NCBI GenBank assembly: GCA_003194525.1
Contig: NBIV01000056.1
Coordinates: 1-64,000 of the forward strand
Length of the DNA: 64,000 nucleotides
Direction: 5' to 3'
From: Gracilariopsis chorda
Lineage: Eukaryota; Rhodophyta; Florideophyceae; Gracilariales; Gracilariaceae
The position numbers were made by a program, and so were the translations under genes. Below are positions 2 through 64,000 of the stretch, piece after piece. The notes beneath the pieces were generated by a model. That model searched no databases. It saw only the letters and a program-made list of their open reading frames with translations, and was not told where the DNA came from. Position 1 is the stretch's first letter. Each line of letters opens with the position of its first letter.

Positions 2-1634
2 GAGGTCCTTGACGGAATGATTGACCAACGGATTACTCGCCTCGTTCCTCAGGTCCTGGAATCCACGACCTTCGTGGAAGCCATGGCCTCGACCATACGG
101 ACGGAGGTCACACGCCAGGTAGGCACCCCGGCCCTCGCGGCCAATATTCAAAGTATTCCTTCGGCCTCCGTGTGGCAACCACACTCCGAACCCCCGGGAG
201 TGGCTGCTTTACCAGCCCCTCGCCGGGTAAACCAACAGGACGACCAAATGGAAGTGCACCCAGGGAGTGGAAGAGAGCCTCCCCGGCAAGAAGGCCTAAT
301 GACTGCACGACCCATGAGGTACCAGGGCTCCCAGCAGGCCCGCAGACCCATCGGATTTGGCGATGTCGAGATCGCTCCATTGGACGAGCGAAGTGCTGAC
401 CGAAGGAAGAATAGAAGACCTAGAAGGAACAAGAAGTCGAGGAAGAGGAGAGACCATTCGGACGAGAGCGATGACGGGTCCAGTTCGGACTCGTCAGTTT
501 CGACCGATACGGACGCGGATGAGGCGGCTGTTCGACGCCTCAGGCCGCTGGCAACCACCAACGAACTTTTTAAGAAAGTGTTGGACTATCGGACTTACCG
601 ACTGGACAACAGGTCCTCAAGGTATTCCGGTTCGGTGGCTCGACGAGTCACCAAGTGGGCCAAACGGATGCAGCTTACCGTCACGGACAAATTCTCGGGC
701 GCTGACCCGATTGCTGTCCTTAGGTTTCTGTCTCAATTCCGTACGGCTGCGACCAGAACGGCGTCCAGGTAGCCGCTCTGTATCTGTCTCAGTTTTTCCT
801 CAGTGGACAAGCGCGTCGAGTGACCATGTGGTTTCGAAGATCTCCGGTTCCAGTTGACCCAATGGATGCGACCGATAGGGAGCTCCTTAGGTCCTACCCA
901 AGGTCTCCATTACCTTTTGGAGACGTACGCCACTGATGACGTAATCATGGATGCCATTCAGGACGTGATTTCCTTTAGGCAAAGCACTAACGTAACCGAA
1001 ACGGACTTTGCTGACCAACTGTGGAAGAAGGCGTACCGCTGTGGGAATGTGTTTTCCGAAGGGCGACTCAAGCAGCACTTCATCGCTGGATTGCTGCCGG
1101 CCATTAGGACTCACGTGCGTAATCACCACTCGGACAACCAACGCCTCTCGTTCCGACAGCTGGTCACATATGCCGAAGGATACGGCAAGACCTATAGGAC
1201 ATCCCGCCGAGCGGCTGACTTGGATACCAGAGGCCGAGCATCACCCTTAAGGAAAGAGTTCCAAAGTCCATATGGTCAACTCTTCTGAAAGCGAGTCCAC
1301 TGGTAACATCCGTTCGGAAGAAGGAGATATCCTTGCGGTCTCTTTTTCTTCCGCTCCGTCTGGTGCTCCATCCATATCGGCCACTGGAACTACTACTACT
1401 CCATCTGGACAAACGACGCCGCGGTATACTTTCGTCCAACCTAGGAAGGACGTATTCACCCGCGGGCCCCCTTGCTACCTCTGCCTTTCCACGGCCAGGC
1501 CGTGTGATTGCATGAAGTTCATGCCGGAGGACGTTCGCAAGAACCTGTTGGCCCTAAGGATGAGAACTTCCAGGCCAGGAGGGCGGAGGAAATTACCCTC
1601 GTCAGTACCAGCGGAATCAGTCCTCAGGGTCTAG
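2..1634 (+). pseudogene. Gag-like polyprotein of GypA-1, frameshifted, N-terminus off the window
   Basis: The reading frame is open from the window edge through 772, with a Lys/Arg/Asp/Ser-rich hinge near 400-530. Homology to the Gag at 62-64 kb then continues in frame +1 from about 742, returns to the first frame by 854-1288, and shifts again to 1272-1634. Shared landmarks with the other Gag are KFSG-DPI, the HYLL repeat region and RCGNVF. Gag would form the particle shell and bind element RNA. The expected CX2CX4HX4C knuckle is degenerate here: CYLC is followed by Arg where His should be, and the last spacing is one residue short (about 1473-1511). The region 1635-1874 continues the Gag-protease linker in several broken frames. 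Confidence 0.75.
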
Positions 1635-2443: not shown

Positions 2444-4111
2444 GTGCGAGTCCTCTGGTCTTTTGACGCTGCAGAATCATCCCAAGACGATCCGGCGTCA
2501 CTCACCCTTATGGCCAATGGAGTTATGGACATCCGTCCGCGGCAGCCCTTTGTGGTCAGTATCAGTAACTTCACTGACCACCCGGTTCGATTACCTAAAG
2601 GAACAGTAGTTGGCATCGCCCTGCCAGCTCCTGTGGCCATTATGGAAACCAATATGGACAACTCCCAACCGGACGACGACGAGGACGTCGAGTCCTGGGA
2701 GGGGACGTCAACATGGGCGACGAATTCGAATCCTATTAGGCCTCAGGTTATAGAGCTCCTTCGGGAATTCAAATCCATGTGGTCTGGCCAGCTAGGCGAG
2801 ATTCGGGCGACAAAGCACCGAATTGACCTTAAGGACGACGCGAAGCCAGTGTACCAGCACCCCTATAGGACGGGCCTAAAAGGAAGAACCATCGTGGCCG
2901 AACAGATGGACAAGATGAGGAGGGCCAACGTCATCGAGCCAGCTCCTCCTCATCAGTCCGAATGGGCAAGCCCTTTTGTCCTTGTGGCCAAGAAGGATGG
3001 CTCCGTCAGGTTTTGCGTTGACTATAGGAAGCTCAACGCTATGACCAAACGGGATTCGTACCCTATCCCCCGGATGGACGACTGTCTCGATTCCTTAGGA
3101 GAGGCAGCTGTCTTTACCACCTTGGACGCCAATTGGGGATATTGGCGAATACCACTAGACGATGACGCGAAGCCGCTGACCACGTTTACGACCCACGAGG
3201 GACTTTTCCGATTCATTCGGATGCCCTTTGGATTAATGAACGCACCCGCGACGTTCCAGAGGGCAATGGACATTATCCTATCTAGGGTCAAATGGAAGTT
3301 CGCGCTGGTCTACTTGGATGACGTTATCATCTTTTCGAAGACCATTGGTGAACATTTCTCCCATGTTAGAACAGTCCTGAGGATTCTCCGTGAGGCCGGA
3401 ATAACTTTGAAGCTCCCCAAGTGCTTCTTTTTCCAGTCCTCTGTGGATTATCTTGGCCATGTGGTCCGCCCTGGCTGCCTACAGGTTGCCTCGAGGACGA
3501 CTGACGCCATACGGCAAGCTAAGCCCCCCAGGACTCATACGGAGTTGCGTTCTTTTTTAGGTCTGTGCAACGTCTATCGTCGCTTTGTCCAAGGGTTTGC
3601 AAAGATCGCTGCGCCGCTTAACGACATGCTGCGCAAAGGGACCCCATCGGAGTTCGATTGCCTGACGGACGAACAATACGAAGCTTTTGAGGCCCTGCGG
3701 GATAAGCTTCTGAACCCTCCTATATTGGCCTTGCCTAAACCGGACAAACCGTACATCCTTGATACGGATGCGTCCGATGGCCAAATTGGATGTGTTCTCC
3801 TCCAGGAACAAGAATCTCCGAAGGACTATAGACCAATTGGATATTGGAGCCGCTCGCTAACGAGCCCAGAGCGGAATTATAGCACGTCCGAGAAGGAGTG
3901 CTTAGCCATTGTCTGGTCAGTATTAACCTTAAGGCCATACTTGGAAGGAGTCCGCTTTACCATTAGGACTGATCATCATTCCCTCAGGTGGCTTATGAAC
4001 ATGACCGACGCGTCCAGCAGGCTCGCCCGATGGAGATTGCGCCTGTCGGAGTTTGATTTCGACGTCGCCTATAGGCGGGATCAAGCACCGAGCAGCGGAT
4101 GCCCTCTCTAG
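2444..4111 (+). pseudogene. Reverse transcriptase and RNase H of GypA-1
   Basis: A 555-codon open stretch holds RT and most of RNase H. Visible RT motifs in order: HRIDL entry, FCVDYRKLNA, YPIPRMDD, FTTLDAN (the usual following Ser-Gly is Trp-Gly), MPFGLMNAPATFQ, and the catalytic YLDD (3311-3322), intact. RNase H shows DTDASDGQIG, SEKECLA and RTDHHSLRW. It would copy element RNA into DNA inside the particle. Near 4075-4085 the frame shifts, so the native C-terminus of RNase H (HRAADALSR) continues in the frame that starts at 4053. RT itself looks complete; the lesions are at its borders. Confidence 0.88.
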
Positions 4112-5256
4112 GATCCTAACCGACGGCACCGACGAATCCCCACTGGACGACGAGCTACCCACGCCGGACCTTTCAGGTTATGAATCTGACCATGAGGATG
4201 ACTTCCTTCTAGGACGCGTTAATTGCGATGACTCCGATGTGGACGTGAATGCAGTTTACCTTGTGGACTGGCCTATGGATGACGACAGCGAAGCGCGGAC
4301 CCTTGAGGTTCATGCGGTTCAACCAGAGGAAAAGGAGCTCTTGCCCATCACGCTGGATGAGCTCCTTCAGGCCCAAAAGGACGACGAGTACTGCAAAAAA
4401 CCAGGCTGACCTCGTCGGGACCCCTGGCTGTCTGTTTGACTACGACCGATTCGGACTGCTCTGTCGCAGAGCCCCTCTGGACGGAGCAATCCAGCGGGTC
4501 ATTCCCAAGGTCCTCAGGGCACGGGTTCTATACCTCGCCCATTACCCCCGGTTGGCCGGCCATCCTGGCGGAACAAGAATGTATCAGTCCTTAAGGAAAC
4601 ATTTCTACTGGCCCTTTATGGCTAATGACCTTGGCAGACCTCTAGGACATGCGCTTCGTGCGTGAAAGCACGCGGCTCGAAAAACCATCCATCAGGCCAA
4701 GTTGAAGCTGTTCCCAGCCGCAGGACCACTGGAGTTTATCGCTACGGATATCCTAGGGCCATTACCGTCAACGACCCATGGGAACAAATTTATATTGGTG
4801 CTTACCGATCGGTTCACCAAGCTCACCAGAGCTATTCCCATGAGGTCCACTACGGCCACTGACGTAGCAATGGCGTTCTTGACCCATTGGGTGTATCCAT
4901 ATGGTCTGCCACTTTATCTCCTATCGGACAACGGGCCACAATTCGTGTCGAAATTCTTCGCTCACGTCTGTTCGACCTTAGGAATTAAGCACGTCACCAC
5001 AACGGCTTATCATCCGCAGACCAATGGACAGGCTGAGCGCTTCAATAGAACCATTAAGGACAGGTTGGTGCATTATGTTGCAGAGCACCAGGCCGATTGG
5101 GATGACTACGTCGGACCACTGGTCTATGCGTATAACACGCAAGTCCATCGGTCCACGGGGACTACACCCTTCGACCTAACGCTCACGCGACAGCCCCGCA
5201 CTTTGCGGTTGACCTTAAGGACAGCTGGATACCACAGGACTTCACGGCAGAAATGA
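4053..5256 (+). pseudogene. RNase H tail, linker and integrase core of GypA-1
   Basis: After the RNase H tail an acidic linker runs to a stop at 4407-4409. The integrase zinc finger (H-H-C-C) is split: the histidine part, LAHYPRLAGHPGG, is in the frame ending at 4665, and the TCASC cysteines are in another frame near 4650. The catalytic core (4702-5256) is well preserved, with DDE residues in ATDILGP, LLSDNGPQF and QAERFNR. Integrase would insert the cDNA into the host chromosome. At least three frame changes lie between 4380 and 4710. Similarity to the minus-strand integrase at 53.7-54.8 kb runs throughout. Confidence 0.85.
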
Positions 5257-6130
5257 CCCCTGCCCAGGCCAAACGGTACACCCGGAAGCGGATTGACGAT
5301 ATCATCCGTACGGCCAGAGCACGGTTGAACAAGTCCCAACGGAGGTACAAGGATGACTTCGATAAGTCCGTCAGGTTTACGCTATCCTTTAAGGCCGGTG
5401 ACATGGTCTACTTAGACCGCGCTCCATCGGATAAGCCGCAGGACGATATCGAGGTCATCACTCGAAAGCTCCTCCCACGGTCCACTGGTCCCTATAAGGT
5501 TCTCTCAGCTACGTCCCATACGGTCACTATTGAAATCGATGGCCTACAGGACACCGTCGCAATTGACCGCGTTACGGCCGCGCCTATGCCGCCGAAGCCC
5601 ACTAGTTCCCCTTTGGAAACTCCTGAGGACGCCCCTTCAGATGCTCCCAATTCCGCCGTACAGGACTCTACACCTACGGACGAGCACCTTTCGTCCCGCC
5701 CTAAGGTAGTTACGGCAGATCCATTGATCGCTACACCACCTCCAAAGGCCGTCTCGGCTGACCCACTGGCCCCCTCATCCCAAGAGGAACACAACGACGG
5801 AGTACCGTCCCAGTTGGCCAATGATGGTTACGCCTCTTTGGACGAGATGGATCTCCCCGAGGAGTGGCCTGTGGATGTTCCGAAGGACGTATCTTCACTT
5901 CCTAAGGAAAGCGCTATAGACCGTGTGGTCAATGCCGGCATTGACGACGACGGCGTCGTCAAATACCGTGTCCATTGGTACGGCTACAAACCCTCTGAGG
6001 ACACATGGGAACCCGGGAGAACATCCCGGAGAACTTTGTCCTTAGGTTTTGGCGCCGCATGGGCCGCACGGAGCGCGACCTTAAGGAGGGGGCATACATA
6101 TTGAAATCCAATGGTCAAGGTTCGAATTAA
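5253..6130 (+). pseudogene. Integrase C-terminal region with chromodomain, GypA-1
   Basis: This frame holds the GPY/F-like segment (STGPYKVL), a Pro/Ser/Asp-rich spacer of about 120 residues, and a C-terminal chromodomain: IDRVV, KYRVHWYGY, SEDTWEPG (about 5930-6020). A one-base shift after WEPG puts the rest (ENIPENF, then a basic stretch) in the next frame, which stops at 6128-6130. Chromodomains on Gypsy integrases (chromoviruses) are known to steer integration to marked chromatin. The equivalent domain in the second GypA copy lies at about 52,250-52,350 on the minus strand. Confidence 0.8.
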
Positions 6131-6955
6131 TCCAATGGACGTCGCTAGCTATCGCGCTAAAGTCGCTGAGCTGACCATAGGACAGACGTACTGAGCACGC
6201 GCACTACGCGCGCTAAGCCGATCTGGCTTTCCATGGGCCACGGCGCGGAGCGCTAACCATCCTCTGGTCTAACTATAGTGCGGCCTGCCTCTGGCGCACA
6301 CTAATTTTGGCACTAACTATCAGCCCAATGAAACATCCGATGGACTTACAGCGCGGGCAGCGCCTGCCAAGGCGCGCGCGCTTGATCAAAAACGCCGTCG
6401 GCCAAATGGACAATTTTTTGAAGTGGCGTTGCACGCCCCGAAATCGGCCAAAGCAAAGAACGGCCGATATCTCGGCTTCTAGGCCGCGCACAGACCAACG
6501 GACAGCCGATTCGGAGTCTCCTCGTTTCGGCCAAAACGGCACCGTACGGGCACATTGTGCGACGAGCACGCAAGAAGCGCGCGCGCTGGCCACTGGCATC
6601 TCAAAAAATCAACAATTTCCAATGGACAATTTCTTCGCTTGATTTTTCGAGTGCCAAGGGTGTTGTCCAGAATGGGCACGAGCCCCAGCGCTCCCACGTT
6701 GGGCACGTGTCCACGCCCATTTGACAACCGCTGCCCTGAGAAACCGGCCACGCCGAGCGAGATCACTACGCCTCCATTGGCTACTGCAAACTGTTGCAAG
6801 TCCACTGGAGCGCGAACCGTCGCGGTGCACCCTGAGGGCAACCCACCGCACTAATTGACCTGAAGGCCGGTCAAGCCGACCTAAGGGAAACGGACGTAAT
6901 AACCAATGGATAACTTGACTTTATTGAGACCTAACAGGCTAATTGAAGAGTACCC
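6131..6955. other. Convergent non-coding gap between pol and antisense ORF of GypA-1
   Basis: No convincing coding sequence was found. The frames open here are short and unlike anything else in the window. The segment separates the 3' end of pol (plus strand) from the 3' end of the antisense ORF (minus strand), so it should hold polyadenylation or termination signals for both. It is extremely rich in CCNNNGG heptamers (17 counted by eye in 6121-6960), many of the form CCANTGG. Confidence 0.6.
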
Positions 6956-8950
6956 TCAGGCCGATGGAGCCGGCGTGATCGCGTCGCCGCCCTGGCCCTC
7001 AGACGCACCACCACCGCCATCGGTTGGCGCCTGACCACCGGAACTCTGACCACTGGGACCCACCGTGCGCTGGCGCTTGCGCGGAGGACTGTGCGGACCA
7101 CTGGACGCGGAGCCTGCACCGCCGCTACTGTCGCTCAAAGCGAGCCCATAGCGAGCGTCGATGTCCGCAAGGACCTTGTTGGACAGCACATGAGCGTTCT
7201 CCTGTAGGATCTGCTCCACCGAGTCCTTTAGGGCCTCATTCTCCTCCAGCAGGGCCCCGTAACGCGACGCACGACGCGCCCAAGACCTAGCGCGGCGCAA
7301 TAAGTCCTCAAGGCCACCGGAAACATTGAGGCCAGCGGCACCAGCGACCTCACGGAGAGCTTCGGCCGCATTGGTTACGCCCATAGGGATAGCCGGGATA
7401 GGCGGCAGCGGGGTGACCGACACGGAAAGCGCCCCACCCACAAGGATGTAAGGGTTGACCTCAGGAGCAGGTTCTTCCACTGGAGGACCAGCTGGAGTAG
7501 GCTCGACCACCGGAGGACCAGCCGGGGGCGGAGCAGATGAAGGAACCGAAGGACCAACGGGAACATGCGCGACCTCCGGACCTGCGAAGGCGTCCCCATC
7601 GTCCCCATCGGTAACCACCGAAGGACCCAAGGGAATCGCCAATGGAGCCGCACCACCCCCAGATTCGGGCAACGCCTCATCCTCCAGGAAATTCTTTGAA
7701 GAGAAGCCCTCACCCTTAGGCCAGTAGTCCTGTACGCTTCCTCGCGGGACGACCGGTGGATTCTCCTTCAACGGCTTCGCCAAGTAGGCCTTCCCGTTGT
7801 CATGACCCTGTGGGTGGCGGGGAATATTCCTGAAGGTATCGGTCTCATAATCATACCAAAGGAAGCCAGGGGTGTTCTCCCAATCGACCTGCAGGACATG
7901 TTCCAAAAGGCCTTCGGTGTCCTCAACGGTGAACTCCGTCCCACGGACTACGTTCTGAACCCCAAGGAAGTTGCGAAAATAGTTAATGAGCGAGACCGGA
8001 AGCGGACACACTCGACCTTTTGGACAGCTCATGCCAATTCCATCGGACCACACACACCAATCCTTACTGCGGACGTTCCCACGGACTCCGTAGCGCGCGG
8101 TGTGCAAGAAGGCCATCAGGACGAACACGCCCCACTCCGCGAATGCAACCTGCCACAGGCGGCTCTCGGGATCGAGGAGCTGCCTGGTGTGATACGCAAA
8201 GACCGAAGGAGTCGGAACCAAGAGGAGCGGTGACACCTGCCAAAAGGACTGGAACCCAGACCCATCGGGAAACTCGTAGACCGGCGCATACAGACCTTCA
8301 CGGTTACGGGCTGGCATATCATGAAACTCAATGTTATGCCAGCCAAAGAAGTATCCAAGGGACCTTCGGATGCGAGAATCCGGCTCCACGATGTCTCCCC
8401 AAAAGTCCCTGTTGGTCATCCAGTATATTCCGTCATACGGCGGGAGGAAACATAGCAGGCCCAATGGATTATGTCCCTTAGGAGGAAACTGGTCCGCAGA
8501 GCCCGCTGGGAAGTGGCGGAAGAGCTCGTCCACAAGGAAATTGAGGCGCCACTGGTAGTCCGTTTCCTCCGAGCAGCGGACGAACGGTATATCCACAGGG
8601 ACAAGTTCGCGAGTCCTCCTTCCAGTACGGACGTCCATCGGCTGATGCAACCAACGGTTCTTCCACGAAACGGGACGGGCATTCTTGCTCTGTCGCGGGA
8701 AGTCCGGAACGGCCTCGAAACGACGCGCGTCGAAATAACGCCCCCTCATGGACCCTACGTACTCCTCGACAGACCAAGGGACAGAGACCTCGCGATTGGT
8801 GCGCGGTCTACCATGGGTGTGGTCGTATCGCGTGCCAGGGGTCCAGCTGGAGCCGCGGCCGGCGCCGGAGGAACTAGCCATTCGGGCGATGGAAGGCGGC
8901 AGACCCACAGGAGTGATGTCCGATACCTCAAGGGTGAACGCGTCGTCCAT
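6956..8950 (-). CDS. Antisense accessory ORF (aORF1) of GypA-1, unknown function
   Basis: An intact 664-codon frame runs opposite to pol. The start at 8950 (MDDAFTL) is chosen because the homologue lacks the more upstream basic stretch; an in-frame ATG at 9163 would give 735 aa. The N-terminal two thirds looks globular, with many aromatics (segments such as FFGWHNIEF and AFAEWGVFVLMAFLH). Then come a Pro/acidic hinge with repeated AGPPV-EP (about 447-500), a probable coiled coil (about 545-600), a basic PPRKRQR patch suggesting a nuclear signal (about 622), and a Gly/Ser tail. Landmarks in the same order occur in the ORF at 49980-51821. I do not recognise the family. It ends in TGA and has no breaks despite the decayed neighbouring pol. 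Confidence 0.75.
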   Translation of the reverse strand: MDDAFTLEVSDITPVGLPPSIARMASSSGAGRGSSWTPGTRYDHTHGRPRTNREVSVPWSVEEYVGSMRGRYFDARRFEAVPDFPRQSKNARPVSWKNRWLHQPMDVRTGRRTRELVPVDIPFVRCSEETDYQWRLNFLVDELFRHFPAGSADQFPPKGHNPLGLLCFLPPYDGIYWMTNRDFWGDIVEPDSRIRRSLGYFFGWHNIEFHDMPARNREGLYAPVYEFPDGSGFQSFWQVSPLLLVPTPSVFAYHTRQLLDPESRLWQVAFAEWGVFVLMAFLHTARYGVRGNVRSKDWCVWSDGIGMSCPKGRVCPLPVSLINYFRNFLGVQNVVRGTEFTVEDTEGLLEHVLQVDWENTPGFLWYDYETDTFRNIPRHPQGHDNGKAYLAKPLKENPPVVPRGSVQDYWPKGEGFSSKNFLEDEALPESGGGAAPLAIPLGPSVVTDGDDGDAFAGPEVAHVPVGPSVPSSAPPPAGPPVVEPTPAGPPVEEPAPEVNPYILVGGALSVSVTPLPPIPAIPMGVTNAAEALREVAGAAGLNVSGGLEDLLRRARSWARRASRYGALLEENEALKDSVEQILQENAHVLSNKVLADIDARYGLALSDSSGGAGSASSGPHSPPRKRQRTVGPSGQSSGGQAPTDGGGGASEGQGGDAITPAPSA

Positions 8951-9480
8951 TGGAGAGTCCGAGCGCCACTTATACTGTGACGCCGATAGCAGCCGTGACC
9001 GGTGGACAAGGCGATGGCGCGCGCGATCGCCGACGTGACCGATGGACGCGATCACGGATGAACCCACTTGGACAGCTGATGCCGCGTGCCGCCCGATCAA
9101 CGGCGTCGACCAATGGGACATCGCGAGGCGCTTGGAGCGCCCCCGACGCTGTATGAACTCCATTAGGACTCCTCAGGTCCTTCTCGCCCGATGGAAACAG
9201 CACCGTGGCACTACCACTGGCCTCTCCGGAGACCGGACACCCGGCCTCCCCCGCCGTGCCGACCTTAGGACGAGATATGGTCGGAAAGAGTACGGACTAG
9301 GCTCCTCCAGGGGGGCGAACGCCCTCATGCACTCGGCCAAAGGGGAGCGTGGTGCCGCTGACAGCTGAAATCGGACAGGTGCGTTGTAGGAACGGTGAGA
9401 CCAAAGGAAAAACTTGGTAACCGGCCAATGGGCTGAAGATACCCGTGGAGGACAAGCGGTTCGACCGAGACGGTCAAGCC

Positions 9481-9494
9481 TAAGGAGAGGGCGA
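9481..9494 (+). other. Polypurine tract of GypA-1
   Basis: A purine-rich run (TAAGGAGAGGG then CGA) sits immediately before TGTGAG at 9495. The second GypA element has an almost matching run (TTAAGGAGGGGGA) immediately before TGTGTAG in its own orientation. The shared sequence and shared position relative to the antisense ORF make it the likely plus-strand primer site and mark the 3' LTR edge. Confidence 0.65.
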
Positions 9495-9950
9495 TGTGAG
9501 ATAGTGAAGTCCAGTGGATTCCGCAACTCTGGAGACCCATGTGGACGATACACGTTGTGTATCTGGCCCAAGGATGGCTATCTGTATTTTATATAATTTA
9601 TTTAATTTTATTGAATTAGTAACCATAGGACTAGATATAGCTACTGTAGAGTAGGGCACTTTACAGTGCCACAGGGTCGAGGCGCCTCGGTGCCGATACT
9701 TAGGCACCTCGAGCTGCGCCTCCCCTAGGGACAGTAAACTCAGACACCCTTGTGAGTCTTGAGCACCCCCGTACTCGGTACTCACAATTCCCTTTGGCCT
9801 TCAAGGTATCGCTACCGCAATTCCGACCTGTAGGACTGCGTAGTCAGCGCCACCCCATTGCGCCAACATTACCAGAGGTGTCGCCGCCGCTTCATTGACC
9901 TTAGGACCCCCCAGCTCTGCCACGCTACCACGAGACCATTAGGAGCTTGC
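9495..9950 (+). repeat. Start of 3' LTR of GypA-1 (right end unresolved)
   Basis: The LTR is inferred to begin with TGTGAG directly after the polypurine tract. Its 5' LTR lies off the window, so the length cannot be confirmed by self-comparison; the end given is only where the compositional signature fades. Within it are an AT-rich island (9585-9625) and an inverted repeat of GGTGCC/GGCACC near 9690-9715. LTRs carry promoter and polyadenylation signals. Confidence 0.5.
9585..9595 (-). promoter_or_regulatory. Antisense TATA box candidate inside GypA-1 LTR
   Basis: On the minus strand this reads TATATAAAATA, about 90-100 bp inside the LTR edge and 430-640 bp upstream of the possible starts of the antisense ORF. 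The second GypA copy has a TAAAATACA sequence at the equivalent depth, pointing at its own antisense ORF. Core-promoter function is inferred from sequence and position only. Confidence 0.45.
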
Positions 9951-12612
9951 CCACTTGGCTCACTATCCTACAGACACCTGGGCGATGATATCATTGATCC
10001 CCCTAGTTCTGAGCGTTATCTTCGGTTCCTTCTCTGTAAGGAGACGTAATATTTCCTCACCTTCTACTATTGTATTGCCATGCCCGGAACTGGGAGTGCC
10101 CTGAAAGATGTTCACTATCCTTCCTCGTTAAAGATGAGCCCAGCTGAGTAGAGTTCTCCCAAGAGTGGCACGACTATGTCAGTTTGTAAGACCGAGGCCT
10201 CCCGTCGTGACTTGCACAGGGAGGGTGAGGCAATAATCGGGTATCCGCAAGAGCGATGTATGGGGGTGGTTGTCCTCTAGATAGGTGACGTTTCCACGTT
10301 AGTGGAACACGCAAACACGAGCCGTGGGTAGCAGAAAGGCCATCCTGTAAAGAGAAAAGAAAGGGGGAGCTGAGTGACGAGTGTTGTGGCAAAGACTAAT
10401 GGCAGTGCCGGTAAATAAACCTTATACAAGGCGAAGACCAAGACGGTTGGAATAAGAATCCGAATACTCCGGTCTTTTAGATGACCAAGAGGGTTAGACC
10501 TTCCATATGCAACGGTGCTTTCCTCCAAGGAAAAGTAGAGAACACACGAAGGCAGTGAGGTCTAGATCCAGTTCTCCAGGTTGGGGTCACTTGTTGTGGA
10601 AGGTTTACTGGTGCAACGGCAACTCGCCAGCACACTAAGTACTAACCATCCCAGAAATGGGTGTAAAAATAATAGATAGAATTAATTAAATTACTCCACA
10701 TTGGTGGTTCAGGTCCACAACTGTGGCCAACCGCCAATTGACTCTTCCGTGTCCCACGTGTCAAATCCACTATTAGTGGTCGTAGTTCATGCAAAGACTA
10801 CATTACCGAAACATTCGGTAAATCAACCAAGTACCAAGAATCCTTCCCTGAGGGCATTTCACTTCAATTAGTAAGTCTTTGGACCATCCGAAACCCTCAA
10901 TATGTAGTAGGTACCCCTTGTGATCATCTTGAGCGCTACGCCGAGGCGCTGGAGTACAAGGTTTTCTCCAGCTTCCATCTCTACTAAATCATAGTACTGA
11001 ACCGAATAGACCGACATGCTATATTCGTCGTAGAGCTCTCAAATAATGGTGGTTGCGTCTGGTTTGGACATACTCGGGCGTTTGAAACGATGTTGCTGGA
11101 ATCACCTGGTGCCATCGCCAGATATTATATAGACACAGAAATACCCTAAGAGGTACAATATCGTTTGCCCAGCAGTTCCTTCATGCCAGGGATGAGTCCC
11201 ATAACAGGTTATTATAAGTTGTTGGTTAGACCTAGTATGCAGAGCTGGAGGTTATGTATATTGAAAAATTGTCTACAAAAGACCCAATTTTCGTGGCCTC
11301 CAAGCCAACTTCGGCCAGACAACTTCTCTTCCCTTTCGCGAACCCACCTTCTCTTAGAGCTGTCTGCTCTTCCTTGCCTCCAGCAATACTCTACCCCACT
11401 TTCCACCCATAACTGTGCGGGTCGATCTCCTGCACATTCGGAGAGACTCGGCTGCCTTGGTCTGTTACGAGACCAGCCTGCGTATCGAAAACAACTACAT
11501 AGCGTCTACCGGAACTCAACTGTTGGCTAGGAGCGTTACCAAGTCTACTCCAAGGCAAGCACCAGACTTAAGGTCTTGGTCATGCGTGTTCGGTGAAGAC
11601 GTTCATATCTATATTGCGCTAGGCCCAAGGTTTTGTTTGCGCATATTTTGTAACTGTGGTTCTTCTCTATCGCTACTAGTGTTCCACTGTACTTTATACG
11701 CTTCTACCAACATCTGTTACTGTCTTGCCCTAGTCTGGGCCGTGCATTTCTCGAGCCTGTCACTACAATGTTCGCGTTCCTATTGATATCTTTCTGTCTA
11801 CTATCGATTGACATTGGAAGCCTGTGTTGGTTCTCTCGCGTTACAAATCTATTTCCGATCTAACCTTCGGCAAAGATTGGCACAAAAAAGGCTGTTGTCG
11901 ACCGGTGTCGTGGAATCGTGCAACATGGCGCTCAGAGAAACTATGACCACAAACACTTCCGCCTACAGATTCTACAGATTCTGTATGTTGTCACATAGAG
12001 GTAAGAAGAGAAGTATTTGCCCTTTTTTTACGCATAAATGTGTCTCCTCAAACCACTAACCTTTTCTTCAACCCAAAAAAAACAGTATTGCTGTTGTTTT
12101 CACCACTATCCATACCATCACTGGTATCCTATAACTTTCGTGCTGCTCAGGGTTGCCATTCAATCTTCGCTTTTCTCATTCATTCGACAGCCAATGCATA
12201 CCTGGCATTACCATGCGCAGCTTATGTCCTTTTTCCCAACGATTTTACTGCCAATCTTGCTACTTGTCTTGAAGCATTGCAAAAAATTTGCCTTCTTAAC
12301 GATATTGTCGCTGTCACGCTTAAAGGAAAACGTTTTTGTATAGTGTAAGCTCATGCAGATAGTTCGCTGTTCCGAATGATAGAAAAACATGTGGATATTG
12401 ATGTCTTGATCAAATTCGTCCTCACAGCTCTCTTTTTCATAATCCAGAACTATCCCAAGCCACCTTGTCGTAGTATGAAGCAAATAAAGTACTATCGCTA
12501 TGGTATACATCGTCTTATCGTTCATGAACCGTCCTGGAGGCGGTAACTACTAAATAGCGACTACTCACAGTTTGCACTTGAGCTTCCCATACCGCAATAT
12601 CTCTTCTTCCAC
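9951..12612. other. No gene recognised; possible remainder of GypA-1 LTR and decayed DNA
   Basis: Open frames here are short and show no domain I can name. A 21-base purine run (about 10,350-10,370) resembles a polypurine tract and could mark the edge of another lost element. From roughly 11 kb the sequence becomes AT-richer and looks like old, unconstrained DNA. Confidence 0.5.
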
Positions 12613-49979: not shown

Positions 49980-51821
49980 ATGAGGCGCGAGGGTATACAT
50001 AGTCCCGACAAGGGAATCTCCGAGATACCGGTCCCCCGTACCAACACGGTTACAACTGATCAACCCTCAGTACCTTCTTCAACAGACTCTGCGCCCCTCT
50101 CTACTATGACCAACACTCCGTTTTCGAACAACCCGCCTGCGGGCGCCCCGCAGGGGACTTCCACGAGCGGACAACCTTCCTTCGCGACGCCGGGGTCGCG
50201 GGTTCTTCACCCAACCTCTGGGTTCCTCTCCTTGCCTCTGCCTGGAGGACCGTCTCATGTTCCAGCCTTGGATGCCTCGGAAGCCGCGAGTATCGCCGCC
50301 TGGAATTCCGCTCAAGCGATACCGATCACTGCGACCGCCGCCGGCTGGGTGTCACCATCGACACTTTGGGCCCGCAATCCCCGGGAAGACGCTCTCCTCT
50401 TTTCGCGTGCGCCCTGGTTCCACCCCACATGGGTTTCCGACTCGGACCTCATCGACTCCTATGTGGAGGAGGGCGAGCTCCCAGGGGGACTAGGCCGGGA
50501 TTTGGTCGACTCCTTCGACTGGAGGACGCGTATCGCGGTAGAGCCACAGTTCCTCGCACGGAAGCACACCAGATATGGTTTCGAGACGCTGAATGAAGCC
50601 CGTGCCGGGATGGCCAAGGTCGCCTACGACCGTCTCGCCCACGCGAGTTATCCGGATGAGCTGATACCAACGGAATACAGCTTTGACCTCTCGCGGTACC
50701 GTACCTACGGTGAAGTCTCATACTGCGAGAACCTTGCTGCCTACCAGCCATCTACACCGTTCCGGTCCACTCCAATAGAAGCCGGGATGCTCCTCTGGAG
50801 GCGCCCAGTTCTGCGTGCAGAGTTCCGATATCTTCGTCGTCCGAATCATCGCGGATCCTTCTTCGACCGACTCCGGTTTGAGCGAAAGGCGCGCTCCCGC
50901 TTCGGGTTCCTGGTACCATACCAAAATCTCGAGGTCGAGAGGCTCCGTCCATCCGCGATGCGCGGCCGGGATGCACCTCTTCCCCATTGGTGGAGCAGGT
51001 TCGAAGTCCCGAGGGGATGCTTTGCGGAGATGCCTCCGTGCCTCAGCTACATCGGTTCATGATTAATCAACAATCCGGATTCCGGTTACTGGACTCTCTT
51101 CCTCGCCGAATGGGCTGCTCGCGTTGCCGCATTTCTCCTCTGGGAGGTGTACGACAAGAACCGTCTGTGGTACATTCCTCCTCACCTACGCCAGGTTATC
51201 CGCCGATTGGATCTCTATATCCCTCTGGGATCCAAAGCCAATGTGGATGAGCTTCAGTGCCTTCTGAACACCATCGATATGGTTAACTGGGATACAGTCC
51301 CAGTCTCCAACGTCCCTGACGGTGAGCCTTCCAGGCATGATCGCTCTCCAGGCCGGAGAAATCCAAACGCTGGCAACTTCGTCTTCTATGACCCTTGGGA
51401 GGTATCCGTGACTTCACGGGCTCACGCGCTAGCGTTACGCGATGTACCACGCTCCGTTCCGCGAGGCCACCCGGTTGGGTTCATGTTTTCCGATGACTGG
51501 CACGGTTCCTACGAGGATGATCCAATGGTGGATGACGAACCCGATGAGGTGGAGGAGGCCGTAGCCCCGGGAGCGGCGATGGTCGACGATCTCGACGGAT
51601 CCGGCCAGCATCTGGCTGCTCCAGATGGCTGGAATATGGCCGCCAGTGCGGCTGCTTCTCCGTCTACCGCATCTCCGGTCCCCGTGGACCCTCAGGCCGT
51701 TGCCCTCAGGGCTCACCTCCAGTCCATTGGAGTGTTTGCGCCTTCCAACCTCACCAGCGTGAGCGAGTTATTGGCTTTCGCGTCTGCGAACTACCAACCG
51801 CCAAGGAGCGGCTCATCCTAA
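49980..51821 (+). pseudogene. Antisense accessory ORF (aORF2) of GypA-2, one in-frame TGA
   Basis: One reading frame runs from ATG 49980 (a later ATG at 50106 is also possible) to TAA 51819-51821, interrupted only by TGA at 51060-51062. The N-terminus is Pro/Ser/Thr-rich and likely disordered; a globular centre and an acidic DE-rich stretch (about 51,530-51,570) follow. Landmarks match aORF1 in the same order: RSRFGFLVPYQNLEV with RRSLGYFFGWHNIEF; FLAEWAARVAAFLLW with AFAEWGVFVLMAFLH; VNWDTVP with VDWENTP; and a C-terminal helix AVALRAHLQSIGV with AEALREVAGAAGLN. The C-terminal coiled coil and basic patch of aORF1 are missing. A CGA-to-TGA change would explain the stop. Function unknown. Confidence 0.7.
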
Positions 51822-52157: not shown

Positions 52158-53730
52158 CTACCCAACCTGGGCCATGTCCAAAGTGGATGGGAGTGGGAAC
52201 CGCGTCCGGCGGTGGTAGGTTATCACCTTGGAACGAGGAAGGTGCTGAATGGGCTCCCATGTGTCCTCTTCCGGGGGGTATCCTTACCATCGGATTTGGT
52301 AAAACCACACTCCTTTGGAGTCCAGAACATGATCCACGATGTGGTCAACGACAAACTCCTGGTCGTACGTAGCCGGCTCCTGACCCGTCATGGCAGGGCT
52401 TAAGGGGAGAACCCTGTGAGGGGACTTGCCTGAAGTTGGCGCGACCCTGCGGGCAAACTCAGTTTTCCTCGACGCTGCGAGTGCTGGGACTTGATACCGC
52501 ATTGCGGTCTTTCCGCTTCCTAATCCTCTCCTTGTGGGGGGGGCCTTCTGTTCTAACCGGATTCCCCTATTGACTCGCAGCTCGCGAGCTCTTCTCCCAC
52601 GCGACCCGTGCAACTCTGGTGAGTTTGACCGTTCACGGTGAGGGAGGCGGTTCACTACGGTTCCGACGCCAGGAGGCGGATTGCCATGCATCACACACTG
52701 TAATTGGCTGGCCGTTGGCGGCAAGTGTCGCGCGCGGTCTTTCCACGACGCGGGTCTTGACTGTACTCCTGACGCCGGCCGGCGGTATGTACGTGTACAC
52801 CTTTCCACGGTTTGGAATTTCGGGCTTCGTCCGCGTGACAGTGGCGTCACAGTGTCCATTTGTGGGGCTCTGCGGTAACGCACGCAGTGTCAACCACACT
52901 CTCCGTGTCCGCGGTTGCTTTTCAGCTCACCACGAAACTGGTTATGACCGAGGTTGTATGTGCTCCGTGCTCGGAGATATCATTCGCCACATTAGTGACC
53001 ACACCGAGTCCGGTTCACTACTTCCTCCTTCGCTACCCAGCGACTCGCTCGACAGGAGTGCATGCGGGTCTGCGGAGACGGCCTTCTCGCTTCGCGATGC
53101 GTTCAACTCCTCCCTGCTCCGGGGGTGCTCATCCGACGATGCCGTATTCCCGATGCGGGCTCGTCCACTGTTCCCAACCTTCTCCCGTGCCGGGCTTACC
53201 ACGCGTTCCGTGACGGCAGTACTCTTGCTCTGAAGGGCCTCGGTTAGCGCAGAGTGCGGCGCGAGGGAACTCGCTCGCGAAGCCGTATGAAACGGGACAC
53301 CGTCCGACGCCGGAGCTTCCTTCCGCGATGGCGCGATTGATTCCCGTCCCTCCCCCTCCTTAGGTGAGAGGGCGGTGGGTTCAGGCTGAAGGACCTCCGT
53401 GGGCGGAGTAACGGTTAGGCGTTTGGGGTCAAGCGTGCGTTGCACGATACGCGCGGCGCGCCCAACCGGTTGATCGGCAATCGGAAGATCCGAGAGTCCC
53501 CGTTCCGGGTGCGGTAAGACGGGTGGGCGGGACGGAAGCAGATTATCCGTTGGCCGAGTTACGAGGTCATCCTCCGGGATTGTCACGAGCGGTGATGAGC
53601 CCTCAGGGGGCGCAGGCGCGTGGGCTATGCGGTCGCGTGAGACGCGTTCGAACTGGTTATCGATGTCCAGTACGACTGTGTCGTCGGCGACGGAAACCAC
53701 CCGATAGGGTCCATTCACTATCGATGACAA
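52158..53730 (-). pseudogene. Integrase C-terminal spacer and chromodomain of GypA-2
   Basis: The frame from 53730 starts in the GPY/F module (IVNGPYRVVSVADDTVVLDI) and runs through a long Pro/Ser/Glu spacer to 52942. The phase changes in the spacer. The second frame carries a chromodomain: EFVVDHIVDHVLDSKGVWFY, then QIRW, an in-frame TAA (52284-52286), GYPPEEDTWEPI, and a stop at 52158-52160. GypA-1 has Tyr at the TAA position. Targeting of modified chromatin is the known role of such domains. Confidence 0.72.
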
Positions 53731-53742
53731 CTTGTGGCGCTT

Positions 53743-54810
53743 TTACTTTTCGGGATTATAATATTCCTTTCGCAGGAAGACAGAATCCCCTTCCGAGACC
53801 TGGGGTATCGGGGTACGAATTTTCGCGTCGAAGTTCTGTTTGTATGCCTCCTGGGCTTTTCCCATAGCCTTTCGGGCGGTAGGGACCATGTTCTTCAACC
53901 ATTCCTTCCAGGAATCTCGATATAACCTTGGTGAAGGGTACCCCGAGACGTTCGGTTGCGCTTCAATAGCCATGGGTGGCGGAATCCGAGACAGGACCAG
54001 CTCAAATGGAGCGAGGGTCGTGACCCGGTGTACCTGGGTGTTATACGCGTACGTAATAGCGTCCGTGTACAAGTCCCATTCCATGGGGTGATCCGCGACA
54101 TACGCGCGCAGTGCGTTGAGCATAGTACGATTGAATCGTTCCACTTGTCCGTTACACTGCGGGTGGTAGGTGGTAGTAAACATATTCTTGATTCCCAAGA
54201 TTCTACATACGTCCTGAAAGAACTTTGAGGTAAATTGAGATCCGTTGTCGGAGAGTAGATGTACCGGCGGGCCGTAAGTAAAGACCCAGTGGGTTACGAA
54301 CGCACGCGCAACCACGTCTGCGGTAATCCGTTTAAGCGGTACTGTTCTCACCAACTTTGAGAAGCGGTCAGTAATGACGAGAAGATACTTGTAACCTCGT
54401 TTGGTTTTGACAAGCTCGCCCAAGATATCAATAGCGACATATTCGAGTGGCGCCCGTGCCGGGAATAGTGTTAACTTCTTCGAGTACTTCCGAAGTTTCA
54501 CATTATTCTTCGCACATTCCACGCACGAACGGCGAACTGCATAGCAGTCAAATGCCATAGCAGGCCAATAGAAGTCCCTGCGAAGGGTCAGGTATAGTTT
54601 CCTCTCGCTGGGATGTGCACCCAACTTCGCGTAATGCGATAGATGCAAGACGCGCTGCTGCAGCGTGTGAGGTACAACGATCTGTGGGGCCCGTGTCAGC
54701 GACCTGACTAGGTAGCCTCGATCGTTCACCGCAAAGGGTATCTGTGCGCCCCCGTTAAGACGGGCACGAATCTGGGCACAGAAAGGATCCTGCTGTTGTT
54801 CACGGATCAT
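53743..54810 (-). pseudogene. Integrase of GypA-2
   Basis: A 355-codon stretch with the complete zinc finger (HYAKLGAHPSE ... CVEC) and the DDE core: AIDILGEL, LLSDNGSQF and QVERFNR, then YAYNTQVHRVTTLAPFELV. It begins right after an in-frame TAA (54811-54813) that separates it from RNase H, and ends in an in-frame TAA (53743-53745), after which the same frame goes on into the GPY/F module. Apart from those two stops the domain is intact. Confidence 0.88.
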
Positions 54811-56034
54811 TTACTCAGAGGATATGGGAACAACCTGGCCATCCGGAGGATCCGTAGGGCTTGCAGGCAGAATATCATCACAGATGTCATCCCCATTCAC
54901 GTCTGGGTCGTCTTCTTCCGTTCCCTCCGGGGATTGTGCCATGAAACATGGTATTTCCAGATCGTCGACCGGTTCGGTTTCCGCTGATGTTCCTAAGCGC
55001 GATAGGGCGTCAGCCTGAGTATTCAGGGATCTCTTCTTGTAGAGGACATCAAATGTAAATTCCGAGAGTCGGAGACGCCAACGCATGAGGCGGCCCGACG
55101 GTTCTCGAATTTCGAGTAGCCAACGGAGAGCCGAGTGATCGGTGTGAACCTTGAAATGGTTACCCATAAGGTATGGGCGAAGCGTTGCCGACGCCCAAAC
55201 AACAGCAAGACACTCCTTCTCGGACACCGAGTAGTTGCGCTCGTGAACGTTCAACGAACGTGACCAATATCCGATCGGATGTCTTTCTCCTTCTTCCGTG
55301 ACTTGAAACAACGCACAACCCACCTGGTGGGCACTTGAGTCAGTATCCACTTCGAAGGGTAAGTCCGGGTGCGGTGAGGCCAGAACTGGCGGGGACGTTA
55401 CAGCGTCGACAAGAGACGAGAATGCTGACGACTCAGCCTCGTCAAAGACGTCCAGTTCGGTGGGTTGTCCTTTCCGGAGGAGTGCGTTAAGCGGTGCTGA
55501 CAAGTCGGCAAAGTTCGGGACGAATCGGCGATATACATTGCAAAGTCCTAGGAAGGATCGAAGCTCCGTTTGATTAGTCGGATGTTTCGCCTCTCGAAGT
55601 GATTTCACTCTTGCTTCATCGATTGAAAGCTGTCCGGGGCGGATGATGTGCCCCAGATATTTTACCGAATCGGCGCAGAACTCACACCTTCCCAGCTTCA
55701 GGGTGATGCCCGCGTTGCGGAGCACTGTCAAGACTTCCCGGACATGGGACAGGCGATCGTCCAAGTTATTGGAGAACACTATAATGTAGTCCAAGTATAC
55801 CAGACAGCTGGTCCATTTGAACCTCGCCAAGAGGATATCGATTGCCCGTTGGAATGTAGCTGGGGCATTCGTTAGTCCAAACGGCATTCGCTTAAAGCGA
55901 TATAGTCCTTGATGGCACACAAACGCGGTCTTATCACGATCTCCTTTCCTAATAGGGACCTGCCAGTATCCCGAATCGGCATCAAGGGTAGTGAACACCG
56001 TTGCGCTCCCCAGGGAGTCAATGTACTCGTCCAT
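54811..56034 (-). pseudogene. Reverse transcriptase (distal half) and RNase H of GypA-2
   Basis: Begins exactly at the Copia insertion point with MDEYIDSLGS, continuing YPIPRMD from the other side. It has FTTLDADSGYWQVPI, MPFGLTNAPATFQRAIDILLA and then YLDY in place of the catalytic YLDD (GAC to TAC, about 55,787-55,800), then YLGHIIRPGQL. RNase H has EVDTDSSAHQVGCALF, SEKECLAVVW and HTDHSALRWLL, and ends with DALSRLG. The YLDY change alone should abolish polymerase activity. A TAA follows the acidic linker. Confidence 0.88.
56030..56034. repeat. 5-bp target site duplication, left copy
   Basis: TCCAT, repeated at 60707-60711 on the other side of the Copia element. Removing the element and one copy restores the GypA-2 RT reading frame across Met-Asp-Glu-Tyr. 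Confidence 0.95.
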
Positions 56035-60424: not shown

Positions 60425-60706
60425 TGGGAATCGTGTTGTGACATGAGGCACGTAAGTCTCACATATGTATCTTACGTTAGATACATTACGTGATATGTAA
60501 TGTTGTGAGGTAAGCAGTAATTAGTCTCATTAGTGCTGACCTCAGCAGTATAGTAGATTCTGAATCCTGTGGTTCCCTGCAGAGCAACCACAAGCGTACC
60601 AAAGGCGTCTATGATTTTGGCAGGGTTTTGCACAGATGCCATATCTATAAAGGCTTGGAAAAGACTCCACCTTCAAGGAGAAGGAGTCATCCGACCGAAG
60701 ACAACA
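60417..60706 (+). repeat. 3' LTR of the Copia element
   Basis: 290 bp, TG...CA, two mismatches to the 5' LTR. It contains the stop codon of Gag-Pol at its start (60422-60424). Confidence 0.96.
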
Positions 60707-60711
60707 TCCAT
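60707..60711. repeat. 5-bp target site duplication, right copy
   Basis: TCCAT, identical to 56030-56034. Confidence 0.95.
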
Positions 60712-62190
60712 TCGTGGAATCGGATAGACGTCCTTGACAGTAACTGCATTCAGGCGGCGGTAATCCACACAGAAACGCCATGATCCATCGGCTTTCAGAA
60801 CAAGGACAACAGGAGAAGCCCAAGGGGATTGTGCTGCTTCGATAACTCCAGCTCGCAGCATCTTCTCCACCTGAGATTTCTCTTCCCCCCTTGCTTTAGG
60901 GCCTGCCCGATACGGGTGCTGTGCAATAGGCCGTGTATCCGGCAACAAAAAAATCCGATGTTCGGTTACCCCTATCGTCCCCAGGGAACCGTCCCACATG
61001 GCGGTAAAGTCCCTGAGCATGTCACGAAACTTCTCACGATGAGATTCATTAATGTGATCCAGGTCCAACTTATCCAAAGCCTGTTCTGGGTCTAACGCAG
61101 TATCTGCCGATGCTGAAGTCGTGCTCTTCTGAGCTTCTTCGACAGTCGAATCTGAACTTTCCCGGGCGGGATCCAACGGAACGAACGGGACCTCCTCCCC
61201 CTCCTTAGGTTCTTGTATTCCGAGAACGTCGGATATCGGAATTTTTGTAGGAAGGATAGCCAACGGATGCGGAAGCATGTTGCCCAGGACCTGGTTTTTA
61301 ACCAACCACTGAGTGGTAGTTCCGAGGTTAGCAACGAGAACCTTAAAGGGTTTGTCCGGCTCGACGGATACGATCCCATTTGCTAATGCGAGACGGCGCT
61401 GTTCGTGGAGCGAGGGGAGCGGTTGAACAACCTGCAACCCGTGGTGTTTGGATGTTACTGAGACCCACACCTGAGATTCCTTCGGGATCGAAACTGGTTC
61501 CGCGACGCGAATCTTCGTAGATGCTCGATCCACATTGGACGCTTCCTGAGCAGCAGGTAAAGGTACCCGTTTACGGGAGGCGTGTCGCAAGGGCTTCCGT
61601 ACAATCGGGATGGTCGAACCGTTGGCCAATTCCACGGATCTGGAGCGAGGGCGGATAGCTTCCACGAAGCGGTCACAGAAATCACAACCGAGGATGACCG
61701 GTGCAGCAAGAGAATCGCATACGATGAAGTCCAACTTCACCACGTAGGTGCCTAGTCTGAGTACCAGAGGAATTGTTCCAAGAGTCTGGAGCTGGTTGTT
61801 AATAGCGTCCGCCAGATCCAGACTTGGACCAATGCGAATGCATTTCCGCATGGCGGGTGGAATAATCCCGATATTGATCAGGTTCGGAGCGGCACCTGTA
61901 TCCAGGACAGATAACTGACGAACCATGAACTGGATAGAGAGACCGAGGTCACTATAAACTTTATAGTTCCTCTTGGCCATTACCAAAACTCGATCCGGGA
62001 TGCGGAGGTTACGGGACCGTATCCACGGACGACGCAGAGCCACTAAGTGGTCCGAGCTCACGTCTTCTTGAGCCAGTTTCCTCGTAAGGATTTTGGCAGG
62101 GGAGCGAAGCGGTGGCGCCTCAGGCGTCTTCAACTTCGGCTTGGAAGACACCCCTCCCGTGGGGGAGACTCCCAAGATTAGTTTTTCGGG
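60707..62190 (-). pseudogene. Protease and proximal reverse transcriptase of GypA-2
   Basis: Protease with an intact Asp-Thr-Gly (SVLDTGAAPNLINIG, about 61,905) and VILGCDFCDRFVEAI. Then a long linker and the start of RT: TEHRIFLLPDTRPIAQHPYR, SPWASPVVLVLKADGSWRFC, VDYRRLNAVTVKDVYPIPRMD, cut there by the Copia insertion. Residues read beyond that point come from the Copia LTR. The frame overlaps the end of Gag in the -1 phase, suggesting translation by frameshift. No ATG is needed, and the nearest start-like codon is TTG at 62175. Confidence 0.88.
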
Positions 62191-64000
62191 ACCGAATCGA
62201 CCGCTGGGTGCGGCTGAGCCCGTTCCGAAAGGTTAGGGTTGTTACCGTTCGCGGTTTTCGCGGCTTCTCGAGCTTGAGCATTGTGGACCGCAGCCTTTGC
62301 GTCTTCATACGAATTACTCGGGACACGAGCCTTATGCTCCGGTGGGAGATTCTCATAATTTCCCACGATCTTCCACATCTCGCGAATGGGGAGGGTACAC
62401 TGCGACGCAGTATGACCTTCAAGGTAACAAATGTAGCAAATCAGCGGGGCTGAACGTGTTCCGGTGGCGTGGGACATCATTCCGCGGTGCTGAGGGTGTT
62501 GTGGTTGGAATGCTAGTTGCTTCGGGTTGGACCATCCCGGGCGGGAGTGTCTTGTGGCGCTCGACGCGTAGGCTAGCTGGGCTGGGGGAACCCGACCGGG
62601 GTTTGCGTAAAATGCCGGATCTACCACGGGGGGTGTAACCGTGGACGGCAGTTCCGAGGTTGCCAACGACTGTTCAAGACTGCCAAGATACTGGATGTTA
62701 TCCGCAAATCCAGAAGGTGGTCCCGGGTTAGGGAGAGATGCCGAGGAAGCCTCGTTCTCGACGAAGAGAGCCTTCGACGACCGACGCCTCGGGTCTCTCG
62801 CTCTGAGGGTGTCACCCTCAGCCTGCGCGTACTGGACCAGTTCCAGATACGTCGCCTTGCGCTTCTCTTCCCTGTAGCGGGACACCAGTGCCCTGATACC
62901 AGGATCTAAACCATCCACCGGCATGGAGCAACGCTCAAAAGCGGTAAACACATTTCCACAACGATGAAACGCTTTATTCAAGCGAGTTGAATACGACGTT
63001 TCCGTTTCACCAGGCTTCTGTTTCGTATCGCGAACCGCCACGATGGCTTGACTGATTGCAGTTCCCGTCACGTACGACCTGAGCAGGTAGTGTACAGCCT
63101 CGGGCCAGCACGTAACACCTCCTTCTGAGGCCCTGGACGAACCCCTGACCGAGTTGTACTGATCTTCAGCCATTCCTGAAAGAAAGTAGGGCAACGCAAC
63201 GTATGCCTGCGCCTCACTCATTTCGAGTACGTCTGCTTCCTGCACAAAGCGGGCCATAAAATCCAACACGAGGATCGGATCTTCACCGGAGAACTTCTGC
63301 TTACGCATCGTCACATTCATACGACGTATGAGATCCTTCACCCGACCGGTGTCTCTCGAACTTCGAGTGCCCGAAGAGTCTTCCAATCGGTAATAACGAT
63401 AGGACAACAGCTTCCTGTAAAGGGGATTCGTCGGTTTCAATTCCTTCAAGCCGAAATGACGGCGACCTTTCTCCCGCGCACGGATTGCTCCATGGGAGTT
63501 GTAGGTAGCCCTCGAACTAGGTTCTTCTCCGCGACGGCGGCCTCTCCCTTCACGCGATGATCTCGAAGACGAGCTACTCGAACTTGTTTCCGAGTCGGAA
63601 GTTGACGAAACTTCATAACGATGAACTCTCTTTCCAGGGTGACGGGGGAGGTGACTGGAGCGGTGTTGGGTTGAGATGACCTTCACTTCCTCCTGTCTCG
63701 GAGCGTTCAGGTCTTCTCTGAGCAACGCTTCCAGCGTGTCCATACGTCCGGTTACCCGCATCATATGGGTTTTAACTTCCTCCACGAACTCCCGATATCC
63801 TTCTACGAAGGCAGCCGGAGTACCCAGACACTCCAGAAAGGAATTCACATCAGCTCTCAGGAGACGAATATCTCCCGAATAATCCCGAGCCAGGGAGTCA
63901 CTCCATCGCCGTTCCAACTCGGTAACTTGCTGCGAGAGGGAGGCGTGGGCCACATTGGCAATGTCGATTCTCGACTCGAGGAGATGGTACTTAGGCGACC
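62178..64000 (-). CDS. Gag of GypA-2, open to the window edge
   Basis: The frame is open from the edge (no ATG needed inside the window) for about 607 codons to TAA 62178-62180. An N-terminal helical region (LLESRIDIANV, QQVTELERRW), an Arg/Ser/Glu-rich hinge (about 63,480-63,650), a capsid-like centre (KFSGEDPILVLDFMARF, AVHYLLRSYV, AFHRCGNVFTAFERC) and a complete CCHC knuckle, CYICYLEGHTASQC (about 62,410-62,455), are present. No stop or shift is seen, unlike the homologous Gag at 2-1634. It would assemble the particle and package RNA. Truncated only by the window. Confidence 0.85.
   Translation of the reverse strand, partial: SPKYHLLESRIDIANVAHASLSQQVTELERRWSDSLARDYSGDIRLLRADVNSFLECLGTPAAFVEGYREFVEEVKTHMMRVTGRMDTLEALLREDLNAPRQEEVKVISTQHRSSHLPRHPGKRVHRYEVSSTSDSETSSSSSSSRSSREGRGRRRGEEPSSRATYNSHGAIRAREKGRRHFGLKELKPTNPLYRKLLSYRYYRLEDSSGTRSSRDTGRVKDLIRRMNVTMRKQKFSGEDPILVLDFMARFVQEADVLEMSEAQAYVALPYFLSGMAEDQYNSVRGSSRASEGGVTCWPEAVHYLLRSYVTGTAISQAIVAVRDTKQKPGETETSYSTRLNKAFHRCGNVFTAFERCSMPVDGLDPGIRALVSRYREEKRKATYLELVQYAQAEGDTLRARDPRRRSSKALFVENEASSASLPNPGPPSGFADNIQYLGSLEQSLATSELPSTVTPPVVDPAFYANPGRVPPAQLAYASSATRHSRPGWSNPKQLAFQPQHPQHRGMMSHATGTRSAPLICYICYLEGHTASQCTLPIREMWKIVGNYENLPPEHKARVPSNSYEDAKAAVHNAQAREAAKTANGNNPNLSERAQPHPAVDSVPKN

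Follow-up and report, generated by a model that had tools for sequence, protein, structure and literature searches.

Antisense open reading frames (ORFs) situated between pol and the 3' long terminal repeat (LTR), designated aORF-3R, have been described in several plant Ty3/Gypsy retrotransposons, among them gene23 of maize Grande, rice RIRE2, ORF4 of Silene Retand and PvRetro13 (PMC7264820, PMC11963269). Gene23 of Grande is reported to have a promoter of its own and a nuclear protein product of unknown function (PMC7264820), and the antisense ORFs of Retand, a non-chromovirus lineage of flowering plants, contain Transposase_28 (PF04195) in 97% of clusters, for which a regulatory role has been suggested (PMC11963269). 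By the descriptions given there, and by description only, likeness extends beyond plants to the fungal element Boty, whose antisense ORF likewise follows pol and precedes the 3' LTR (PMC7264820), and to HBZ and APH-2 of the human T-cell leukemia viruses (HTLV), which are also antisense coding genes and are regulatory and nuclear in HTLV (PMC11963269, PMC7264820). Here, we report an antisense gene in two diverged Gypsy elements, GypA-1 and GypA-2, from the red alga Gracilariopsis chorda, both found in positions 1 to 64,000 of contig NBIV01000056.1 (this stretch of 64,000 nucleotides is referred to as the window). Like the plant aORF-3R it lies 3' of pol and ahead of the 3' LTR, on the strand opposite to gag-pol, but unlike those of Retand it resides in a chromovirus and in a red alga. 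Retrotransposon antisense genes have been reported mainly in flowering plants, and the GypA case adds another phylum and a different type of element; in the open-access literature, consulted largely as abstracts, no antisense ORF was found described for red-algal elements.

Judged by profile comparison, the antisense ORFs of GypA-1 and GypA-2 are one conserved gene that probably predates the split of the two elements. A direct BLASTP comparison of the two proteins was not significant (best E 0.078, within low-complexity parts), and pairwise BLASTP was replaced by profiles of the two protein families, comprising 12 and 15 sequences. Aligned with hhalign, these profiles matched over 220 columns (Prob 98.1, E 8.5e-14) with a score of 115.2, against a maximum of 37.3 in 100 column shuffles and 25.1 for the reversed profile. 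The GypA-2 profile also retrieved the GypA-1 antisense ORF from the six-frame translation of the window (E 1.6e-6). A third type, at locus L039, has an open frame of 712 codons recognised by both the GypA-1 profile (4.7e-106) and the GypA-2 profile (3.9e-17), and the adjoining reverse transcriptase (RT) is 61% identical to that of GypA-1. Structure models of both types, compared by eye, predict the same order of a long helix at the AEW motif, a strand, helices and a strand, the GypA-1 model being weak (mean predicted local distance difference test, pLDDT, of 55.9). The proposal of a first-pass annotation of the window, that two diverged Gypsy elements share an antisense gene at an equivalent position, is thereby borne out, including by the profile alignment on which it was to stand or fall. 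A helix-loop-helix shared by the C-termini of the two types was considered and rejected (hhalign probability 0.9%, not significant).

In GypA-1 the antisense frame is uninterrupted for 735 codons (6956-9163, minus strand). The first-pass annotation had placed the ORF at 6956-8950; the ORF itself is real, but 8950 is an internal methionine rather than its limit, the frame staying open to 9163. Alignment with relatives suggests that the conserved start lies at 8881, which corresponds to Met24 of the protein as first annotated, and the gene read from this probable start (6956..8881, minus) encodes 641 amino acids, with a core at about residues 100-355, a linker rich in proline and acidic residues, and a helical C-terminus with a basic KRQR stretch. 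The in-frame extension upstream (8882..9163, minus), open throughout and offering further candidate starts at the ATGs at 8950 and 9163, has scant resemblance to the extensions of relatives in the alignment and may be a 5' leader or additional coding sequence. The GypA-2 gene (50106..51821, plus) had been annotated as open at 49980-51821; the gene is present, but its frame is broken in the window by a TGA at 51060-51062 when read from 50106, the start suggested by comparison with the copy L030 and the protein P0004. In other GypA-2-type copies the frame is uninterrupted for up to 643 codons or more, and that of L029 encodes 613 amino acids from its methionine.

The gene is numerous and firmly associated with its element. 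A search of the whole genome gave at least 105 match rows of the GypA-1 type, for which 67 of 678 candidates were scored, in at least 65 places, further pieces of the same places being excluded, and more than 150 rows, as a lower bound, of the GypA-2 type. The antisense ORF was opposite to the RT in all 21 copies tested (L017-L036 and the two elements of the window). This count omits L023, where an antisense gene stands without a pol of its own in the fetched stretch; the next pol on the same strand belongs, according to the hit list, to a neighbouring element that has its own antisense gene. The ORF sits 3' of pol and before the 3' LTR, the latter mapped for GypA-1 only. Among the matches listed, every antisense-gene match up to 16 kb downstream of an RT match was antisense to it (27/27, downstream matches only being counted). 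No antisense match was listed for 51 of 78 RT rows; two of these, read directly, carry the gene, and some of the others are real deletions. Groups of RT at 60-72% identity that appeared to lack the gene were discarded as a category, as both places checked carry it. Pairwise identity in RT rises and falls with that in the antisense protein (Mantel r 0.69 for 12 copies and 0.80 for 9 copies, p 1e-4 each), and the antisense protein diverges faster, with 44% identity against 81% for RT between the window copy and L019. The ORF is thus tied to the element lineage, as had been proposed, rather than placed at random, and L039 likewise carries the gene.

Two loci deserve separate mention. L017, which is of the window type, is nearer to L019-L021 over gag and the greater part of pol, but slightly nearer to L022-L027 in the C-terminus of pol and in the antisense protein, a pattern in which an exchange of the 3' module between lineages is possible. 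At L040 (G000:C12) two antisense genes of the family lie close together and inverted, with RT matches listed on either side, which suits two adjacent elements, each with its gene antisense to its own pol.

Selection was assessed from the ratio of nonsynonymous to synonymous substitution rates (dN/dS) in 15 pairs, of which three were informative comparisons between lineages, two had saturated dS, nine fell within young subgroups, and one (window/L017) was near-identical. Between lineages dN/dS was 0.146 for L029/L030, 0.27 for L032/L033, and 0.19 for window/L022, the last with dS near saturation. Differences between L029 and L030 were distributed over the three antisense codon positions as 129, 92 and 289 (p 1e-28), and an excess at third positions of the antisense frame was found in all three informative pairs (p 1e-28, 3e-8 and 2e-15). 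Since changes concentrate at third codon positions, the protein is under selection, and the antisense ORF is almost certainly a selected accessory protein gene.

The first-pass annotation did not recognise the protein family, and neither did we: searches of Pfam, NCBIfam and PDB sequences gave no convincing match for the antisense family, and fold searches, viral folds included, returned no match with E <1 for the model of either type. PF04195, typical of Retand, was not matched in the 27 family members scanned against Pfam-A (12 + 15). Weak domain matches to SIP (0.039, in one of 12 members) and CT622 (0.87) were attributed to chance. No relative turned up among phage records or viral contigs, and scans for Rfam families, tRNA and tandem repeats returned none. 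The GypA-2-type core has a fairly good model, with a pLDDT of 75-95 in most blocks of residues 121-500, and because this well-modelled core finds no fold match it is likely to represent a fold without a solved relative. A KRxR motif near the C-terminus occurs in four of the six GypA-1-type proteins with an available C-terminus (window, L021, L022 and P0002; not L027 or L039); it may be a nuclear import signal, as a hint only. The named relatives are proteins of Gracilariopsis and Agarophyton, both Gracilariaceae. One of these, BWQ96_10156 of G. chorda, is of the GypA-2 type, with genome copies up to 99% identical over residues 88-565 and up to 94% identical over the first 95 residues, which places the host in Gracilariopsis and not among the oomycetes that the first-pass annotation had suggested searching. 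It matches G000:C305, C6, C336 and C1 in two pieces about 70 bp apart, a gap which is perhaps a small intron or an artefact of the gene model. The protein P0003, in which bacterial DnaA domains are joined to a piece near-identical to P0002, was excluded as a likely assembly chimera. By analogy, the GypA antisense gene is best read as an accessory gene like the plant aORF-3R that encodes a new protein family.

Candidate expression signals flank the gene. In GypA-1 a TATAAG motif (8969..8974, minus) lies within the open extension before the probable start, and an AATAAA (6920..6925, minus), a candidate poly-A signal, lies just past the stop. Of 20 copies, 12, representing 8 of 10 lineages, have a TATAWR motif at -160..-60 of the probable start, compared with 56 of 1,559 other 100-bp windows on the same strand; several starts were extrapolated for this count, and L028 and the GypA-2 window copy, which has TATACA where L029 has TATAAA, were excluded. 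The open extension of L030 has no methionine within 75 residues before the probable start, which suits that start. The distance from the stop to AATAAA is 33 bp in three GypA-1 copies, and five GypA-2-type copies have the signal 34-189 bp past theirs. The candidate TATA motif of GypA lies outside the LTR, whereas the HTLV antisense promoter is reported to lie inside the 3' LTR.

Some GypA-1 copies have lost the gene. A search with window 5253-9500 as query, in which 40 of 111 candidates were scored so that the counts are lower bounds, identified at least 18 copies from which the segment 7416..9342, containing the start and core of the gene, has been deleted through one common junction, with matches to the query on both sides. 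At least 12 near-identical copies retain the gene, ten of them (including the window) as a single match and C43 and C18 as two pieces; a further two match partially (C960, and C2 at a contig start), and four copies at 83-85% identity retain the region. The ends of the deletion form an imperfect 12-bp repeat (10/12), of the kind expected from a template switch. Breakpoints other than the common junction are seen in C4 and C292:2257. In at least nine deleted copies pol is a stop-free open frame of about 1,500 codons. For GypA-2, 31 copies were scored out of 382 candidates and every one retains the region, but the query contained it and thereby favoured such copies. As intact and naturally deleted sister copies coexist in one genome, whether the gene helps or restrains its element may be tested by comparing them.

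Taken together, we consider it rather probable that the gene is an accessory gene of a red-algal chromovirus, perhaps with its own promoter, whose product is a nuclear trans-acting regulator or helper. The gene would have descended along with the element from a time before the split between GypA-1 and GypA-2. Its transcription would converge on that of gag-pol and would perhaps begin at a TATA promoter of its own, some 70-150 bp before the start, and not in the LTR. The product would have about 570-640 amino acids, with a folded core, a linker rich in proline and acidic residues, and a helical C-terminal part predicted to contain a long helix, to which several GypA-1-type proteins add KRxR. 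The protein may be a nuclear, trans-acting regulator or a helper that binds nucleic acid or chromatin, as proposed for GENE23 of maize Grande; among the roles put forward in the first-pass annotation, these are the ones we favour. Of these steps the nuclear or regulatory role, drawn by analogy, is tentative and falls somewhat short of an even chance.

Several observations weigh against this reading. No fold or domain match indicates nucleic-acid binding, and both proteins measured are net acidic (-14 and -12). Within young subgroups dN/dS was 0.40-0.72 (nine pairs), which gives no support for selection there and is as expected of decayed copies. The deletion derivative has multiplied to at least 18 copies, and the gene is therefore dispensable in cis. 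With regard to the promoter, the TATA interval was set after a first look at the sequences, 8 of the 20 copies have no TATAWR motif, and AATAAA was not found after the gene in the remaining copies, the end of L036 being placed unreliably. Of the 12 copies that have the motif, 9 have an antisense frame open from there to the start (the exceptions are L026, L031 and L036), so that the motif may partly be coding; this weakens the TATA motif alone as proof of a promoter. In the GypA-2 type a stretch reading approximately D/E-I-P-V-P recurs 5' of the start (window 49980-50106, L030, L033 and L035), with the TATA motif some 30 bp before it in L029 and L033, and could be conserved coding sequence or a DNA signal at the start of transcription. 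As most of the motifs fall where the ORF continues open upstream of its start, we have lowered our estimate for a promoter of the gene's own from distinctly likely to just favoured.

An alternative with a lower but appreciable chance is that the protein is a helper in trans for a step of gag-pol, such as nuclear import or a particle or integration-site factor, with full copies supplying the deletion derivatives. Purifying selection between lineages and the coexistence of derivatives with gene-keeping copies agree with this, but several derivatives look otherwise complete in pol, and their success would be unexpected unless supply in trans was efficient. It is unlikely, although less easily dismissed than the explanations that follow, that the gene is self-limiting, its protein or, by way of double-stranded RNA, its transcript restraining the element such that copies losing it spread more freely. 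The abundance of the common deletion next to near-identical copies keeping the gene points in this direction, and the convergent arrangement permits double-stranded RNA; the deletion counts, however, are lower bounds, the scored GypA-2 copies all keep the region, selection at the amino-acid level favours a protein over RNA alone, and neutral loss of a passenger fits the data equally. Somewhat more doubtful is a specific version in which an internal antisense promoter drives a protein of unsolved fold, evolved or acquired by red-algal chromoviruses, that controls copy number in trans, the lineage with the common deletion having escaped and C4 and C292:2257 being independent losses.

The first-pass annotation also raised the capture of a host gene, which we find improbable and which our searches do not support. 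Retroelements can transduce genes (PMC7264820), and no viral or element family was matched; on the other hand, protein searches gave unannotated proteins and one likely chimera rather than a conserved host gene, in databases that may lack the donor. The position between pol and the 3' LTR would also suit an env-like gene, a reading made very improbable by the uniformly antisense orientation, by hydropathy maxima over 19 residues of 1.44 and 1.29 in the two proteins, neither suiting a membrane segment, and by the AEW run being predicted as a helix inside the well-modelled GypA-2-type core. Long open frames are likelier in GC-rich DNA, but a chance ORF shadowing a sense-strand feature is practically negligible in view of the third-position excess in the antisense frame and the homology across families.

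The GypA elements are chromoviruses by domain content, as RT, RNase H, integrase and a C-terminal chromodomain occur in a single pol of 1420 amino acids in L017, a copy of the GypA-1 type. In these domains they are like other chromoviruses, and the antisense gene is additional. In the window copy of GypA-1 gag and pol are fragmented and the antisense frame is intact. A gag fragment (17..772, plus) matches the first part of the 585-amino-acid frame in the gag position of L017, which itself matches Retrotrans_gag at E 0.0035 and fails the curated cut-off. Pfam domains mark the RT and RNase H of pol (2444..4111, plus) and the integrase C-terminus and chromodomain (5253..6104, plus). The 3' LTR (9495..9972, plus) was delimited from hit boundaries and its terminal TGT..ACA, and is directly preceded by a purine-rich tract (9482-9494). 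Several occurrences of CCAATGG lie in the interval that separates pol from the antisense gene (6104-6956) and near the 5' part of the gene (8940-8960).

GypA-2 is represented on the minus strand by the 3' part of pol (52942..56034), with RT/RNase H, integrase and a C-terminal part without a Pfam hit; no chromodomain was matched in the Pfam scan of its window fragments. A nested Copia element separates this from the 5' part, upstream pol and the gag position (60673..63953, minus), which was placed by similarity to the corresponding GypA-1 regions and in which neither ORF has a Pfam match. The Copia element (56035-60704, inside pol) has one frame of 1392 codons from gag to RT and two 288-bp repeats that are 99.65-100% identical, and because these are near-identical the insertion is recent.

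Elsewhere in the window, 37951-38583 (minus) encodes a Tf2-type integrase C-terminus with a chromodomain, probably a fragment of another element, and two ORFs without Pfam match (29342-29947 and 30245-31198, plus) are probably also fragments of other elements; none of the three matches the profiles of the antisense family. A further ORF of 412 amino acids without a Pfam match (15466-16704, minus) resembles a hAT-type transposase.
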